This document shows, one piece after another, positions 6,545 to 26,508 of a stretch of 29,748 nucleotides of DNA. The notes beneath the pieces are model-generated. The model was not told the origin of the DNA and made no database searches. It worked only from the letters and a program-made list of their open reading frames with translations. The translations under genes and the position numbers were made by a program. Each line of letters starts with the position of its first letter. The stretch's first letter is position 1. The stretch is from a virus. The DNA lies in the IMG/VR virus record IMGVR_UViG_3300012964_000044, positions 1 through 29,748 of that record. The stretch is one strand, 5' to 3'.

Positions 6545-6859
6545 ATGAAAGTACGTCACAAATTTAATGCAAAACCGGTCAAAGATGATGGTTTTCACTA
6601 CGCATCAAAACTTGAACACAGGTACAAACAAAAACTCGATCTACTGCAAAAAGCGGGTGAAGTGTTGTTTTATCTAGCGCAAGTGCCGATTCGATTACCC
6701 GGCGGCGTGAAATACGTAATTGACTATCAGGTCTTTTATAAAGATGGAACGGTTGATTTTGTCGACGTGAAAGGATATGACACGCAAAACTCAAAAATAA
6801 AAAGATCTATTGTTGAGTCAATTTATCCATTAACAATAAATGTAGTAAAAAAAGTATGA
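6545..6859 (+). CDS. DUF1064 family protein (nuclease-like fold)
   Basis: A 104-residue protein with the DUF1064 pattern: KFNAKPVKDDGFHYASKLE, then YKQKLDLLQKAGEV, a beta region (QVPIRLPGGVKYVIDYQVFY) and DFVDVKGYDT. The D...E/D-x-K arrangement (IDYQ ... VDVKG) is like the PD-(D/E)XK nuclease core, so a small endonuclease or resolvase-like role near packaging has been proposed for this family. ATG at 6545 is preferred to TTG at 6539. Its TGA overlaps the start of the HNH gene (ATGA). It lies where many phages encode packaging-associated nucleases, just before the small terminase. Confidence 0.75.
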   Translation: MKVRHKFNAKPVKDDGFHYASKLEHRYKQKLDLLQKAGEVLFYLAQVPIRLPGGVKYVIDYQVFYKDGTVDFVDVKGYDTQNSKIKRSIVESIYPLTINVVKKV

Positions 6860-7254
6860 AAAAATCTTGTCTTTTTTGTAAAAAAATATTACTAGCTGCC
6901 AGATCAAGAACTAAATTTTGCTCAAAATTGTGCTTTGGTAAAAACTCAAAAGGGAAAAAGGTAGGAGATGGGTTTTGGTATGAGAACGGATATAAAGTCT
7001 TATACACAGAAGACGGAAAAGGAATAAAAGAACATATAAAAATTATGGAAGAAAAAATAGGAAGAAAAATAACAAAAAACGAAGTAGTGCACCATATTAA
7101 CGAAATAAAAGACGATAACAGAATAGAAAATTTACAACTTATGACTAGATCAGAGCATTCTTCTTATCACAGAAAATTAGAAATAAAAAACGGGACTTTT
7201 CAAAACGGAAGACATGGGAAATCCAAGCATCAACAAGAAATCGTCGGGGTTTAA
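6856..7254 (+). CDS. HNH endonuclease, free-standing, homing type
   Basis: A 132-residue protein. C5/C8 and C22/C26 (CLFC ... FCSKLC) form an N-terminal zinc finger. The HNH motif lies at residues ~77-105: VVHHINEIKDDNRIENL followed by RSEHSSYH, with H79/H80, N92 and H101/H105 as likely metal and catalytic positions. The gene is markedly A-rich and sits between DUF1064 and the small terminase with an ATGA overlap upstream and one base to the next start. Such free-standing HNH genes next to terminase are usually selfish homing endonucleases, although some HNH proteins assist terminase in cos cleavage. Both readings are open. Confidence 0.85.
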   Translation: MKKSCLFCKKILLAARSRTKFCSKLCFGKNSKGKKVGDGFWYENGYKVLYTEDGKGIKEHIKIMEEKIGRKITKNEVVHHINEIKDDNRIENLQLMTRSEHSSYHRKLEIKNGTFQNGRHGKSKHQQEIVGV

Positions 7255-11987: not shown

Positions 11988-12140
11988 ATGAATATGCAAT
12001 CAGTAGATTTACTCTTACTGTTTAACTTCATCAATTATATCCCTCCTATTCCAGCAGGCATGATTTACTGGGTTGACGATGCAAAAGATTTCATGGTTGA
12101 TGACTTTGGCAACTTCATGATATTCAATCCGGGTACTTAA
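11988..12140 (+). CDS. Small acidic/aromatic protein, 50 aa, coupled to the large terminase
   Basis: GGAGGG precedes the ATG by seven bases and the TAA overlaps the terminase ATG (TAATG). The 50-residue protein starts hydrophobic (MQSVDLLLLFNFINYIPPIP) and ends in an acidic/aromatic stretch (WVDDAKDF, DDFGNFMIF). It could be a small virion or packaging accessory protein. No family is recognised; the strong ribosome-binding site and overlap support expression. Confidence 0.6.
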   Translation: MNMQSVDLLLLFNFINYIPPIPAGMIYWVDDAKDFMVDDFGNFMIFNPGT

Positions 12141-14917
12141 TGTCGGATTACATAAAGTACGCATTGCAAGAACTCGAGGAAAGAGACAGCGCAGAAGCGT
12201 CACTAAGCGAGTTTATTAAGCAATCGTGGCATGTTCTACACCCAACATCCCCTTATATCCACAACTGGCATATTGACGCCATAGCCGAGCATTTAACAGC
12301 TATAACAAACGGGAAAATAACCCGCCTCCTTGTCAACGTGCCCCCGGGCAGCTTAAAATCTCTGTTGGTCAATGTGTTCTGGCCCGCGTGGGAATGGGGC
12401 GCAAAGAGAATGCCAGAAATGAGCTATCTATGTGCCGCTCATATGGAAAAGCTGGCAATACGCGACAATATGAAGATGCGCCGGTTAGTATCGAGTGAGT
12501 GGTATAAAAACCGCTATCCTCACATCATTTTAACAAGTGATAGAAACTCTAAGTCAAACTTTGAAAATACCGAGACTGGATTTAGAGAAGCTATGGCAAT
12601 CGGAAGTTTGACAGGGTCGAGAGCGCATAGAGTGACATGTCTGCCATATAATGCCAAAATATGGACGTCAGATGGTTTGATTTCTATAGGTGAAATAGTA
12701 GAAAAAAAACTTGACGTATTAATAGCTGGAACTGATTTAAAAACTATTACATGGCAGAAGATAGAAAATTATGAAAAAAATGAACCTAGAACCATCATCA
12801 GAATCGAATTTGATTGCGGATTCATTGAATGCACAGAAGATCATAGAATCTATACAGACTCAGGATGGAAAGAAGCAAAAGACATTACAGACAAAGATAA
12901 AATATATAGAAACAATCACATTAGAATGTTTGAATTGCAAAAAATCATTTCATCCGAGAAAGAAAGCAGAAACAACGCCGATATATGGAACAGAGAAACA
13001 GAGAATGTATTGGAAGAAGTTGTTATTAGAAAAATTGAAAAAATAAATAGGAAAGATGAGTTTTCATACAATATAAAAGTAAATCCTCACCATAATTATT
13101 TTTGCAATGGGATATTAGTTCATAACTGCGATGACCCGTTAAGTGCCGAGGATGTCACATCGGACACTAAACTAGATAACGCTGATTTCGTATTTAGCGA
13201 AGTCATCCCAACTCGCTTGGTTGACCCGATTAGGTCGGCAATTATCGTTATCATGCAACGATTACACGAGAGAGACACGAGCGGTATCATATTGTCTCGC
13301 AATCTCGGCTATGAGCATTTATGTTTGCCGATGGAATTTGAGCCTCTAAGACGATGCACAACATCCATCGGTTTTAGTGACCCGCGTACAGAAGATGGGG
13401 AGCTGTTATTTCCTCAGCGTTTCCCCAAAGAAGTCGTAGAGCGCGATAAAAAAATACTTGGAATTTATGCCTGTAATCCATATGAAGCTCCTGTTTTAAT
13501 GGGGGATTTATCATTAAAACCTATTGGTGAAATAAAAATAGGTGATGAAATTATAGGATTTGGGGAAAGAGAAAATAATATTAATAAAAATAAAAAATAC
13601 GGAAGACAACATTTAAAAAAAACATTAGTAGTAAATATTTTTAAATCAATTAGACCTGTAGTGAAGATCACATTTGAAAGCGGAGAAGTCATTCGATGCA
13701 CACCAGATCACAAATGGTATAGAAAACAAAGAAAAGATACTGAAAACAACAAAGGGGCTTACCGACCCGCAAAAATAGGATCAAAACTTGCTCGTGTATG
13801 TGATCCAAGTTTGATGGAATTATCAAAAGAAGATGAAAGAATAGCTGGCTGGATAGCTGGATTTTTTGACGGAGATGGAAGTGTATCATCTCATTCAAAA
13901 ACAAAAGGAGATAGAAATTCGTCATCTATTTGCTTTTATCAAGGAGCAGGAAGAAATTTACCTATTTGTACTTATTTAGAATCATCATTAAAAAGATTTG
14001 GATTTGAATATACTTATAGTGAAGACCTTAGAAAAGATTTAAAAAGTAATTTTGGATATGGTTATAGACAATACAGACTAAAAATAGATGGTTTGCCTAC
14101 ATTTCAAAAATTTTTACATATCGTAAGACCTAATAAATGGAAAGAAAGACTCATATCCGGCGCATTAGGAACGAAATTCATAAAAAAAAGAGAAAAAGTA
14201 ATTAGCATTGAGCCTGACGGAGAGGAAGAAGTTTTTGCGTTAGAGACAATAACAGGAAATTATGTAGTATGGGGATTAGCTTCCTCAAATTCAGCCGGGC
14301 AGTTTCAACAACGGCCGTCACCCCGTGGCGGTGGATTGATCAAAGAAGAATGGCTTTCACAGAGATTTAAGCTATTGCGTGACGGTGCCGGAAAAGTTGA
14401 TTTAAAACAATTTTCTGAGATATATCAGTCATGGGATACTGCATTTAAAGAAGGCGAGGAGAATGATTATTCAGTCTGCACAACGTGGGGATTGAAAGAC
14501 AATAAAATACACCTCATTCATCTAGCCCGTGTAAAAATGGATTTTCCCACACTGGAGAAGCGAGCTATTGAGCTTGCTGCACACTTCTGCCCTAATCAGA
14601 TTTTGATAGAAGATAAAGCAAGCGGTCAGTCACTTGTTCAGGCATTCAAACGTAAAACACGATTGCCGGTTAAGGCAGTCATACCACAGCGCGACAAGAT
14701 AGCGCGTGTTAACTCTGTCACTGGGTACTTTGAGGCAATGCGCGTTTGGCTACCGGAAAATGAACCGTGGTTAATTGATTACATTGACGAGATGACAACG
14801 TTTCCAGCAGGCGCCCACGATGACCAAGTGGACTCGACAACCCAATTTTTTATACAGATAGTTTTAAAGAGGGAGGCATCATTACAAGCGCTAGAGGTCA
14901 CAATGATGTCGCGTTAA
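12140..14917 (+). CDS. terL: Terminase large subunit precursor containing two inteins
   Basis: The 925-codon frame encodes the DNA-packaging motor plus two in-frame inteins (residues 167-329 and 445-717). After excision the exteins total 489 residues, the usual large-terminase length. The ATPase has a Walker A variant PPGSLKS (68-74); the Walker B region is HRVT-CDDPL, split by intein 1. The segment LGIYA-SAGQFQQRPSPRGGG is split by intein 2. The C-terminal RNase-H-like nuclease shows D766 (SWDTAF), E824 (LIEDKASG) and D894/D895 (HDDQVDS). Splicing is needed for a functional enzyme, as both inteins interrupt conserved motifs. Start overlaps the preceding stop. Confidence 0.92.
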   Translation: MSDYIKYALQELEERDSAEASLSEFIKQSWHVLHPTSPYIHNWHIDAIAEHLTAITNGKITRLLVNVPPGSLKSLLVNVFWPAWEWGAKRMPEMSYLCAAHMEKLAIRDNMKMRRLVSSEWYKNRYPHIILTSDRNSKSNFENTETGFREAMAIGSLTGSRAHRVTCLPYNAKIWTSDGLISIGEIVEKKLDVLIAGTDLKTITWQKIENYEKNEPRTIIRIEFDCGFIECTEDHRIYTDSGWKEAKDITDKDKIYRNNHIRMFELQKIISSEKESRNNADIWNRETENVLEEVVIRKIEKINRKDEFSYNIKVNPHHNYFCNGILVHNCDDPLSAEDVTSDTKLDNADFVFSEVIPTRLVDPIRSAIIVIMQRLHERDTSGIILSRNLGYEHLCLPMEFEPLRRCTTSIGFSDPRTEDGELLFPQRFPKEVVERDKKILGIYACNPYEAPVLMGDLSLKPIGEIKIGDEIIGFGERENNINKNKKYGRQHLKKTLVVNIFKSIRPVVKITFESGEVIRCTPDHKWYRKQRKDTENNKGAYRPAKIGSKLARVCDPSLMELSKEDERIAGWIAGFFDGDGSVSSHSKTKGDRNSSSICFYQGAGRNLPICTYLESSLKRFGFEYTYSEDLRKDLKSNFGYGYRQYRLKIDGLPTFQKFLHIVRPNKWKERLISGALGTKFIKKREKVISIEPDGEEEVFALETITGNYVVWGLASSNSAGQFQQRPSPRGGGLIKEEWLSQRFKLLRDGAGKVDLKQFSEIYQSWDTAFKEGEENDYSVCTTWGLKDNKIHLIHLARVKMDFPTLEKRAIELAAHFCPNQILIEDKASGQSLVQAFKRKTRLPVKAVIPQRDKIARVNSVTGYFEAMRVWLPENEPWLIDYIDEMTTFPAGAHDDQVDSTTQFFIQIVLKREASLQALEVTMMSR
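12638..13126 (+). mobile_element. Intein 1 in the large terminase (mini-intein)
   Basis: Residues 167-329 of the precursor (163 aa). It begins with Cys (CLPYNAKIWTSDG, block A), has block B with TEDH (FIECTEDHRIY), block F (FSYNIKVNPHHNYF) and ends CNGILVHN with the canonical His-Asn, followed by Cys as the +1 residue. All splicing residues are present, so it should be active. It lacks a LAGLIDADG or HNH motif in frame. Between blocks B and F is a ~45-residue stretch that in the +1 frame spells a zinc-finger-like sequence (see findings), suggesting loss of an insert. The DNA is more A-rich than the exteins. The insertion lies directly before the Walker B aspartates. Confidence 0.9.
13472..14290 (+). 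mobile_element. Intein 2 in the large terminase, with LAGLIDADG endonuclease
   Basis: Residues 445-717 of the precursor (273 aa). It starts with Cys (CNPYEAPVLMGD, block A), has TPDH in block B (VIRCTPDHKWY), an endonuclease insert with the LAGLIDADG-type helix AGWIAGFFDGDGS, and ends VVWGLASSN before Ser (+1). The last residue is Asn, but the penultimate residue is Ser instead of the usual His. One LAGLIDADG motif is clear; a second is not obvious. The DNA is very AT-rich compared with the exteins, as expected for a recent arrival. The site is the conserved A/S-AGQ-QQRP motif. An endonuclease suggests it can still home. Confidence 0.88.
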
Positions 14918-24172: not shown

Positions 24173-24604
24173 ATGGCAGCGAATGGTTTAAGCACTGGTA
24201 TAGATCATAAACTCACGTTTACTGATATTAATGGCGTACAGAATTTTGTTATCTTGGAAAACTTCACCGCTAAAGAAGATGCAACAACCGACAAGGTTGT
24301 TGCAATGGATGGAACAGTAAGACACCCTAAGTTTCATGTGGGCTGGTCTGGTAGCTTTTCTCTGCAAAGATCAAGCAACGTAATGGATAATTACTTTGCG
24401 TTACAAGAGGCTTCTTATTATCAAGGTGTTGATCAATTGCCTATGACCATCACTGAAACAATCACGGAACCGAGTGGTGTTGTTTCTACATATCAATATA
24501 CCAATGTTGTCATTGTTTTTGATGACGCTGGTAACTGGTCAGGTACTGAGATCGTACGTCAAAGAATAAGCTTCTTGGCAAGCCGTAGACAACAGTTAGT
24601 ATAA
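24173..24604 (+). CDS. Tail tube protein
   Basis: A 143-residue beta-barrel protein, next to the sheath as expected. It contains LENFTAKEDATTDKVVAMDG, RHPKFHVGWSGSFSLQRSSN and VVIVFDDAGNWSGTEIVRQRI, a pattern seen in inner tubes of myophages. GGGAG precedes the ATG. It would polymerise around the tape measure and be surrounded by the sheath. Confidence 0.82.
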   Translation: MAANGLSTGIDHKLTFTDINGVQNFVILENFTAKEDATTDKVVAMDGTVRHPKFHVGWSGSFSLQRSSNVMDNYFALQEASYYQGVDQLPMTITETITEPSGVVSTYQYTNVVIVFDDAGNWSGTEIVRQRISFLASRRQQLV

Positions 24605-24616
24605 CCTTAGAGGTAG

Positions 24617-24967
24617 ATGATGAAAGCAAGTGAGAGAATAGTAAAATCGTCATATGACGGAAAAGACATTAAAGACAGTGAAGGTAGGGTAATTAAGTTA
24701 AGAAAGCCTAAATTGCTTGATGTTTATGATTTAATGAAAGCATTGGGTGACGATGCTAAAAACTCGGCTTGCTTAGGTATGGCTTATAACACTCTGTATG
24801 TCGGCATGATTGACGGCATGATTATTGAATGCCCTAAAACCTACCGTGAAGTGCGAGCCATTTTACAAAGACTTGACGATCACGGCATGGCGGCTATCTC
24901 GCAAGCGTTAAGTGACTTCGAAGAAAATAAGACAGAACAGGAGCAGTTAGAAGCTGCAAAAAAATAG
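24617..24967 (+). CDS. Tail assembly chaperone (gpG-like), frame 0
   Basis: A 116-residue protein between tube and tape measure genes. It has KLRKPKLLDVYDLMKALGDDA and CLGMAYNTLYVGMIDGMIIE and ends in a charged, Glu/Lys-rich stretch. Position and size match the first tail assembly chaperone of lambda-type frameshift pairs. Its last codons contain a slippery run (AAAAAAA at 24958-24964) immediately before the stop; a -1 shift fuses it to the frame at 24964-25143. The ATGs at 24617 and 24620 are both plausible starts behind GAGGTAG. Confidence 0.82.
   Translation: MMKASERIVKSSYDGKDIKDSEGRVIKLRKPKLLDVYDLMKALGDDAKNSACLGMAYNTLYVGMIDGMIIECPKTYREVRAILQRLDDHGMAAISQALSDFEENKTEQEQLEAAKK
24958..24964 (+). 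other. Programmed -1 frameshift site (A AAA AAA)
   Basis: The heptamer sits in the zero frame exactly as A-AAA-AAA and is followed by the zero-frame TAG at 24965-24967. A -1 slip leads into a 59-codon open frame without any ribosome-binding site of its own. A run of seven A is among the strongest bacterial slippery sequences. Confidence 0.82.
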
Positions 24968-25143
24968 TAGAACACACACCAACAACCGAGGCGTTGTATT
25001 TAGTTAAGAATGGCGTACCGTTTGACGTGGCCTTTGAGCTTGATGACATAACGCGGTTCGCTTGGTGTGTGACGCTAAATCAGATAGAGTCAGGTCGCGT
25101 TTTCTGCTTCGACAGTATGACTTTTAAAGAAAGAAATAATTGA
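24964..25143 (+). CDS. Tail assembly chaperone extension (gpT-like), reached by -1 frameshift
   Basis: From the slip site the -1 frame continues for 59 codons: VEHTPTTEALYLVKNGVPFD, then VAFELDDITRFAWCVTLN and SGRVFCFDSMTF. The pattern V/LxxGVPFDVAxxLxxxxRxAWxVxLxxxExGxxFDxxxM is common in C-terminal parts of frameshifted tail chaperones. The fusion would be about 175 residues. No start codon or ribosome-binding site is seen at its beginning, so translation by frameshift is the simplest reading. It should bind the tape measure during tail assembly. Confidence 0.8.
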   Translation: MVEHTPTTEALYLVKNGVPFDVAFELDDITRFAWCVTLNQIESGRVFCFDSMTFKERNN

Positions 25144-25156
25144 AACAAAATTAAAC

Positions 25157-25203
25157 TAGAAATATACTTCCAATATTATATTAAACAAGGAAGTGTATTT
25201 CTA
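25157..25203 (+). promoter_or_regulatory. Hairpin covering the ribosome-binding site of the HNH gene
   Basis: The arms 25157-25171 and 25189-25203 are complementary over 15 positions with one G-U pair, around a 17-base A/T loop. The right arm contains GGAAG and ends at the first base of the ATG at 25203, so a full transcript would hide the start. T4 I-TevI uses this strategy. Confidence 0.6.
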
Positions 25204-25979
25204 TGGTTAAATCTGATCGTGCAAAACAGTGCAGACTTAGAAAAAAATTAGGTATTGTATGGCGTCCATTTTACTTAAGTGATTTATGCAAAAATTGCGG
25301 ACAGAAAAAAGATGGCAAAGGAAAATGGCTTTGTAAAAAGTGTGCAACCGCTTACAGTAAAAAATACAAAAAACCGCTAAAGGAAAGAAAACCTAGAAAT
25401 AATATTTGTTCAAAATGTGAAGGAGTCAGAGATAACTACCCGAAAAGTTGGTGTAAGTCTTGTACAAATGAGTACAGTAAAGCAAGAAAAAGAAAAATTT
25501 CTTCATTAAAGCCTAAAAAAGATAAAACTTTATGTTGTAAATGTAACAACAAAAAAGATGTTACTTGGAGTAGCTATTGCAAGGATTGTCGAAGAAATTA
25601 CAATAAGTCTTATCGTTTGAATGAAAATTCAAAGAAAAAATTAAAAATTAGAATCAAAGTAAATTCCCTCATTAAATCAAGAAAAATAATCAAAATGCCA
25701 TGTGAAAAGTGCGGCAATATAAAAACACAGGCTCATCATGATGATTACAACAAGCCTTTAGATGTCAGGTGGTTGTGCCATTTTCATCATAGAGAACACC
25801 ATAGGATGGTAAAAAATAACCCAAACGAAGTAATAAACGATTTAGTTACTAGAAAAAAAGTACCTGGAGTGTGTATAAAATGTAATAATGTTTTAGAAGA
25901 TAAGAAATTAAGTTCGTGTAGAAGTTGTCGGTCAGCTTATGAAAGAGAAAGAAGAAAGAAGAAAAAATTAATTTCATAG
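25203..25979 (+). CDS. HNH endonuclease with four tandem zinc ribbons
   Basis: A 258-residue, very basic protein. Four modules share exactly the spacing CX2C-X11-CX2C: C29/C32/C44/C47, C69/C72/C84/C87, C111/C114/C126/C129 and C224/C227/C239/C242. Each ends in a YSKKYKK- or YERERRK-like basic helix. Between modules 3 and 4 is the nuclease-like part: CEKCG at 167-171, AHHDDYNKP at 177-185 and LCHFHHREHH at 191-200. The gene is A/T-rich with tail genes on both sides and a hairpin over its start. It is most likely a homing endonuclease whose zinc ribbons read a long DNA target. Confidence 0.82.
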   Translation: MVKSDRAKQCRLRKKLGIVWRPFYLSDLCKNCGQKKDGKGKWLCKKCATAYSKKYKKPLKERKPRNNICSKCEGVRDNYPKSWCKSCTNEYSKARKRKISSLKPKKDKTLCCKCNNKKDVTWSSYCKDCRRNYNKSYRLNENSKKKLKIRIKVNSLIKSRKIIKMPCEKCGNIKTQAHHDDYNKPLDVRWLCHFHHREHHRMVKNNPNEVINDLVTRKKVPGVCIKCNNVLEDKKLSSCRSCRSAYERERRKKKKLIS

Positions 25980-25989
25980 CTATGCAATT

Positions 25990-26071
25990 TGAGGAGCGAA
26001 ATTAATGTTAGTACGCCGTTTTAATAACTTCAAAGATTTTGCAAAACTCCTCACTCGAATAAGTGAGGAGT
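25990..26071 (+). promoter_or_regulatory. Possible bistable RNA switch at the tail-completion gene start
   Basis: CTCCTCA (26047-26053) can pair with TGAGGAG of the ribosome-binding site (25990-25996) or with a second TGAGGAG (26064-26070). The second pairing extends to a perfect 10-bp stem (26046-26055 with 26062-26071). The two structures exclude each other. Confidence 0.4.
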
Positions 26072-26508
26072 ATCCACGATATGAACACGCATTTCTCAAT
26101 CAAACCGGCCACTATCTTGCTGATTTCTCAAAAAGTTTAATAGGTCATTTACAGCATGGTGGAATGGCTATTCCAGATTGGAAAGAGCTTGCGCCCGCCA
26201 CTAAAAAAGACAAGACGGACAAAGGCTATGTGTTTAACAGCGAATTTAATCCGTTGTTTCGCACAGGCGATTTAATGAACTCTATCTCTTACTCGGTTGT
26301 ACAGCATACCGTGTATATTGGTTCTGATGATCCGGTTGCGGTTTATCAAGAAATGGGTGTACCAGAAAAGAATTTACCGGCGAGATCGTTTTTGGGTCTG
26401 GCTATGTATAAAAACAAGTTAACTTTAGAACACGCTTTGGGTGATTTTTTGCTAAAATGGATTACATATCGACCACCTATTTTTGACATTAAGAAGATGC
26501 CAACATGA
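26005..26508 (+). CDS. Tail completion / HK97 gp10-like protein
   Basis: A 167-residue protein. It has an N-terminal helical part (FKDFAKLLTRISEEYPRY), then LFRTGDLMNSISYSV, VYIGSDDPVAVYQEMG and LPARSFLGL, the motif order RTGxLxxSI, IGxxxPVAxYQExG, PxRxFLGL of gp10-like and gpS-like tail completion proteins. In most phages it lies before the tail tube; here it follows the chaperones and precedes the tape measure. GAGGAG precedes the ATG. The tape measure start overlaps its stop (ATGA). Confidence 0.75.
   Translation: MLVRRFNNFKDFAKLLTRISEEYPRYEHAFLNQTGHYLADFSKSLIGHLQHGGMAIPDWKELAPATKKDKTDKGYVFNSEFNPLFRTGDLMNSISYSVVQHTVYIGSDDPVAVYQEMGVPEKNLPARSFLGLAMYKNKLTLEHALGDFLLKWITYRPPIFDIKKMPT

Follow-up and report, generated by a model that had tools for sequence, protein, structure and literature searches.

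Homing genes of T4-like phages are among the closest described systems to the locus reported here. In I-TevI, I-TevII, I-TevIII, and SegB of T4, and in MobE of Aeromonas phage Aeh1, long transcripts fold into an RNA hairpin that masks the ribosome-binding site, and a promoter near the gene gives a transcript that is too short to form the hairpin (PMC2988022). MobE is, in addition, a free-standing gene of the HNH type that lies inside a host gene. In the open-access papers that were searched, accounts of a start-hiding hairpin with a nearby promoter concern T4-like phages and their homing genes (PMC2988022). Mobile ORFs that displace the end of a gene are known from fungal mitochondria, specifically from atp6 of Allomyces and from atp6, atp9, cox2, and nad3 of Glomus (PMC3630166).

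Here we describe an HNH gene in a 29,748-nucleotide stretch of viral DNA (IMG/VR record IMGVR_UViG_3300012964_000044, positions 1 to 29,748; hereafter the window). Like I-TevI and MobE, this gene is predicted to have its start hidden in long RNA and to escape the hairpin by means of a nearby promoter. Unlike those genes, which use T4 middle or late promoters, it is preceded by a predicted sigma70-like promoter whose -10 box itself lies in the inhibitory arm, and it belongs to a different HNH family that has tandem zinc ribbons and occurs in other phage groups, the arrangement being seen across 44 nonredundant members. As with the fungal mobile ORFs, the host gene carries a diverged, in-frame replacement C-terminus and the native end is left downstream (PMC3630166); the fungal elements, however, are LAGLIDADG or GIY-YIG ORFs of mitochondria, whereas in the window the element is HNH, the host is a phage tail gene, and ~12-16 codons are replaced. 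The ShiLan insertion in phage DNA methylases likewise has an HNH gene without a recognisable intron or intein and repeated host-like residues at the edge of the insertion, but it sits out of frame inside its host gene and is read through, whereas in the window the host gene reaches its stop ahead of the element (PMC11855218).

Predicted insertion of an HNH gene into the 3' end of a tail-chaperone gene

The window encodes a tail assembly chaperone, G (24617..24967, + strand; phrog_20383, E = 9e-24), that ends at an A7 slippery run (24958-24964). In the -1 frame G is extended by T (24967..25143, + strand), which adds 58 aa, stops at TGA 25141-25143, and has a frame that is conserved in relatives. 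Using the tail tube gene we found ten related loci, and in all of the aligned relatives (from among L032-L039, L185, and L186), as in the window, both the A7 run and the -1 frame are conserved; the relatives' frame ends like KFNF..M.FEE. Together, run and frame read as a clear programmed frameshift of the G/GT type.

The HNH gene is absent from all ten related loci. In the eight that were measured, the gene order after the tail tube is the same and the gap between the chaperone and tail-completion genes is ~170-175 bp, compared with 1037 bp in the window. Related phages thus contain the uninterrupted tail-gene junction that the initial annotation of this DNA had supposed them to have. Note that the tail-completion protein, when used as a probe in viral contigs, gave no matches.

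Two copies of the T end flank the HNH gene. The upstream copy (25099..25143, + strand), with which the window's T frame ends CFDSMTFKERNN, keeps the protein motif; at the DNA level it is no more like the native ends than random stretches are (score 7.8, compared with a null of 6.8). The downstream copy, NFIAMQFEERN* (25964..26005, + strand), matches the empty-site relatives, and its mean score against native ends of 17.5 equals the best of 1000 random stretches (null 6.8). It includes the native Shine-Dalgarno sequence GAGGAG (25991-25996) of the tail completion gene (26005..26508, + strand; phrog_26, E = 7.5e-12), which forms the downstream flank of the insertion, and the last codons and stop of the HNH gene fall within it. 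Thus T still closes, because a diverged substitute end stands upstream of the HNH gene and the native end downstream. These findings indicate that an insertion broke into T at its 3' end, with a replacement now upstream and the original displaced downstream, a rearrangement that the initial annotation did not record. The replacement end appears to have come with the insert. When a duplicated host-gene end was sought in other members of the HNH family, none of those tested gave a convincing one, the window standing alone in this respect.

A hairpin covers the start of the HNH gene

The start of the HNH gene lies in a hairpin that spans 25157..25203 (+ strand), with its left arm at 25157-25171, its loop at 25172-25188, and its right arm at 25189-25203. 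The arms, TAGAAATATACTTCC and GGAAGTGTATTTCTA, form 15 pairs, one of which is G-U, and the right arm takes in both the Shine-Dalgarno sequence GGAAG (25189-25193) and the A of the ATG. The initial annotation was therefore correct that a 15-pair stem hides the ribosome-binding site and the first base of the start codon; its A/T-only loop has to be amended, as the 17-nt loop contains a single C at 25186. No other stem of at least 13 pairs (loop of at most 30 nt) occurs in the 29.7 kb window. In dinucleotide shuffles of the whole window, stems of at least 15 pairs arise ~0.03 times per window at any position, and a stem of 15 pairs placed exactly on a start codon is therefore expected to be far rarer still.

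Overlapping the hairpin is a promoter-like sequence, TTGAAA-N17-TATACT (25140..25168, + strand), that resembles the sigma70 type and matches at 10 of 12 positions. Its -35 element (25140-25145) overlaps the stop codon of T and its -10 element (25163-25168) lies within the left arm. The predicted transcript start is at ~25175, inside the loop, and because the -10 box sits in the left arm, the predicted internal transcript would lack that arm. The earlier suggestion that the loop holds a promoter thus stands as regards the start, which is predicted within 25165-25190, and falls as regards the -35 and -10 elements, which are not confined to the loop. Note that the promoter match by itself is within chance (7 found in the window compared with 5.0 expected). 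On the minus strand the palindrome 25157-25203 also contains a promoter-like TAGAAA-N17-TATAAT (25203 to 25175) whose score equals that of the plus strand.

The predicted accessibility of the HNH start rises from 0.18 in read-through RNA to 0.44 in RNA from the internal start, which is a partial opening. Two other genes of the window, TerL and ORF 2658, show comparable changes without such a stem, and the case for a switch in the window would therefore be weak without the family.

The HNH protein belongs to a family with tandem zinc ribbons

The HNH endonuclease gene (25203..25979, + strand) encodes 258 aa, in which four CX2C-X11-CX2C ribbons of equal spacing around an HNH core can be read directly, in agreement with what had been proposed. 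Ribbons 1 (CKNC-X11-CKKC, 25287..25343), 2 (CSKC-X11-CKSC, 25407..25463), and 3 (CCKC-X11-CKDC, 25533..25589) are N-terminal to the core (25701..25802), and ribbon 4 (CIKC-X11-CRSC, 25872..25928) is C-terminal to it, all on the + strand. In an alignment with 25 relatives the cysteines of ribbon 2, the last three cysteines of ribbon 3, and core residues H178, H179, D180, D181, Y182, P185, W190, L191, C192, and H196 are invariant; in the window the core reads CEKC...HHDDYNKPLDVRWLCHFHHREHH. A match to the phrog_2340 endonucleases (E = 4e-14) covers residues 28-206, that is, the ribbons and the core, and stops at the core, so that ribbons plus core are shared with those proteins and the fourth, post-core ribbon is the window's addition. 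A match to phrog_11793 covers the core. Nothing usable came from searches of the protein against Pfam, NCBIfam, and PADLOC, and its sequence matches in the PDB were attributed to chance. An AlphaFold model (mean pLDDT 82, pTM 0.43) has well-formed modules whose mutual arrangement is uncertain; a Foldseek search with this model gave no significant match.

We gathered relatives of the HNH protein from viral contigs, genomes, and isolate phages, and assembled a set of 44 nonredundant multi-ribbon members that includes the window. These members mostly have three to five N-terminal ribbons (range 2-6), with a spacing of 11 residues in 95 cases and of 13 in 57. Tandem ribbons are thus usual in this family, and the claim that the ribbon layout is unlike that of other phage HNH proteins is wrong for it. 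What is unusual in the layout is the ribbon after the core, which the window protein alone has among the 44. A quick preliminary tree puts the window protein, together with all of the multi-ribbon members, in a supported clade of 59. The tree does not place it firmly within that clade and so lends no support to a shared origin of the window leader and the other leaders, or to the idea that the window element came with its leader straight from the group found at capsid genes.

The predicted switch recurs across the family

Stems of at least 10 pairs are present at 37% of ribbon-HNH starts, compared with 5.6% of 585 control starts from the same loci, where starts were called by rule and most leaders are from metagenomic contigs. 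Moreover, 82% of the 44 multi-ribbon members have a -10 box between -55 and -22, with positions that peak at -40 to -31. When members were classed by the number of CxxC motifs before the core divided by 2, which makes the classes only relative because this count runs too low, the fractions with a -10 box were 0.94, 0.74, and 0.75 in the multi-ribbon classes, compared with 0.32-0.36 in shuffled leaders, and 0.12 in single-ribbon relatives as well as in control genes; a few members classed as single truly have more ribbons (for example L042, L046, and L079). Full promoters, defined as at least 9 of 12 matches with a spacer of 16-18, were found in 48% of the family, 4% of shuffled leaders, and 3% of controls. 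On the reverse strand, which is less enriched than the plus strand, the figure was 16%, as is in part expected because the leaders are palindromic.

Predicted start accessibility across the 44 members increased from 0.285 in read-through RNA to 0.553 in RNA from the internal start, compared with 0.453 to 0.502 for controls and 0.47 to 0.544 for shuffled leaders. A start fixed at -28 gave the same result, which argues that the choice of promoter does not drive the gain. Each of the 44 leaders pairs its start region with sequence further upstream, and the mean share of pairing partners that precede the predicted transcript start is 87%.

In one clade (L041, L003, L050, L047, L053, and L055) the leaders can be aligned closely, and there the leader is paired with codons 2-5 in one helix, with the ribosome-binding site hidden in another. 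The upstream sequence TTAGGCTTGA of L041, L003, L050, L047, and L053 pairs with HNH codons 2-5, so that the coding sequence is part of the switch in that clade. In this small set of six sequences, with a structure derived from one of them, changes on both sides were found in six pairs (9 cells, compared with 1.9 and 2.1 in shuffles; none of 500 was as high), and the signal was weaker when the pairing partners were slid. Only this clade was used, a pairwise count over the loosely alignable leaders being uninformative.

These results bear on an alternative in which the inverted repeat acts at the DNA level as an operator that overlaps the promoter, serving autorepression by the HNH protein or control by a phage regulator, with RNA folding secondary. 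The dyad does overlap the -10 box, and autorepression of I-TevI takes place at an operator that covers its promoter (PMC2988022). However, the compensatory changes, the G-U pairs, and the helix between leader and codons 2-5 in one clade fit RNA better, and arm sequences vary widely among members with the start still hidden. We therefore regard a primary operator as improbable, although operator and RNA switch could both be true.

Occupied and empty junctions differ

The multi-ribbon members other than the window are found in other phages, downstream of one major-capsid-like gene, with the proviso that a few of the upstream ORFs end at contig edges and not all were identified individually. As a control we used 37 nonredundant empty copies of this capsid junction. 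A -10 box was present at 81% of occupied and 13.5% of empty junctions (Fisher p = 1e-9), and accessibility in read-through RNA was 0.287 at occupied and 0.533 at empty junctions of similar G+C (p = 1e-11); these p-values are optimistic, as family members are related. The contrast argues that the switch belongs to the element. The hairpin and promoter logic of I-TevI, to which the initial annotation had likened the locus, thus recurs across the family and is absent from empty copies of its main insertion junction.

A third junction is occupied by L042, L046, and L079, which lie before a gene that we take to be gp4-like. The predicted opening of the start is clear in two of these three members (0.09 to 0.46 and 0.22 to 0.61) and slight in L042 (0.23 to 0.30). 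The tail gene of the window is the remaining insertion site.

The empty junctions also speak to the possibility that the hairpin serves the upstream structural gene in termination or RNA processing, its overlap with the start being incidental. A hairpin is not in itself strange at such a place, since a short GC hairpin follows the capsid gene at most of the empty junctions. Those hairpins, however, leave the next start open, whereas the HNH leaders do not; the family stems have no T run after them, no stem in the window received a terminator call, relatives with an empty version of the window's site leave no room for one between the genes, and -10 boxes in the arm are not something that a terminator would predict. 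On these grounds we rejected the terminator reading as unlikely.

Other mobile elements in the window and among relatives

The large terminase gene of the window (12140-14917, 925 aa) has two matches to intein splicing domains and a weak LAGLIDADG match, and the phage thus carries several kinds of mobile element. A second HNH gene (6856-7254; HNH_3, Pfam E = 2e-13), of another family, is flanked by small genes and located upstream of the structural region; no comparable switch is present in its leader.

Among the relatives, HNH sequences of the same core type are found inside a DNA C5-methyltransferase gene (L021, L023, L026, and L030, also L025 and L031). The frame spans the methyltransferase N-terminus, the HNH sequence, and then GGFP, and in four loci a stop codon comes immediately ahead of the remainder of the CQD motif; these loci resemble the ShiLan insertion (PMC11855218). 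In Bacillus phage BSP12 (L221, 542-3607) a single-ribbon relative is flanked by two segments that carry a DNA polymerase I annotation, which suggests an intron or a split gene.

Discussion

The best explanation for the window, and one that we consider likely, is that a free-standing homing element of the HNH type occupies the 3' end of T and has an expression switch like that of I-TevI and MobE. The HNH gene is probably mobile. The protein would cut or nick the uninterrupted junction between T and the tail-completion gene in co-infecting relatives, and repair would copy a cassette made up of the substitute T end, the promoter, the hairpin, and the HNH gene. Once copied, the cassette would keep GT functional, and the altered site would no longer be a target. 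Long transcripts of the tail operon would fold the hairpin and so hide the ribosome-binding site and the start, whereas the promoter with its -10 box in the left arm would give a transcript that begins in the loop, lacks the left arm, and can be translated. We infer this switch from sequence, from its recurrence, from the controls, and from covariation in relatives. Every step of this scheme has a counterpart in published systems (PMC2988022, PMC3630166).

It could be argued instead that the HNH gene serves the phage itself, in packaging, recombination, or the exclusion of competitors, and that the switch does no more than set when it is expressed. Phage HNH proteins have in some cases been described as belonging to packaging machines (PMC5304195). 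Here, however, the HNH gene is far from the terminase gene and absent in ten relatives, its family members occupy three or more unrelated junctions, its insertion broke and patched a host gene, and the protein has no match to a defence family; a role of this kind seems highly unlikely. An endonuclease encoded by an intron or intein was dismissed, as Rfam gave no match up to E = 1 in 24600-26300, the HNH protein contains no intein domain, and T has its own stop before the HNH gene.

Returning to the homing element, we cautiously favour a broader view, namely that multi-ribbon HNH elements are widespread in tailed phages and carry as a standard part of their cassette an I-TevI-like switch with a sigma70-type -10 box in the inhibitory arm. 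They would occupy three unrelated structural-gene junctions, with a replacement host-gene end in addition in the window, and the RNA switch would be characteristic of the element rather than peculiar to T4. The window offers a compact case, in a phage, of an element that patches what it has broken, here a tail gene whose product needs a ribosomal frameshift, and such patching would explain how the element persists inside an essential gene. If the family result holds, phages unrelated to T4 have a general and maintained way to silence a DNA-cutting gene within an operon of structural genes, and dozens of natural variants are at hand with which the switch can be tested.
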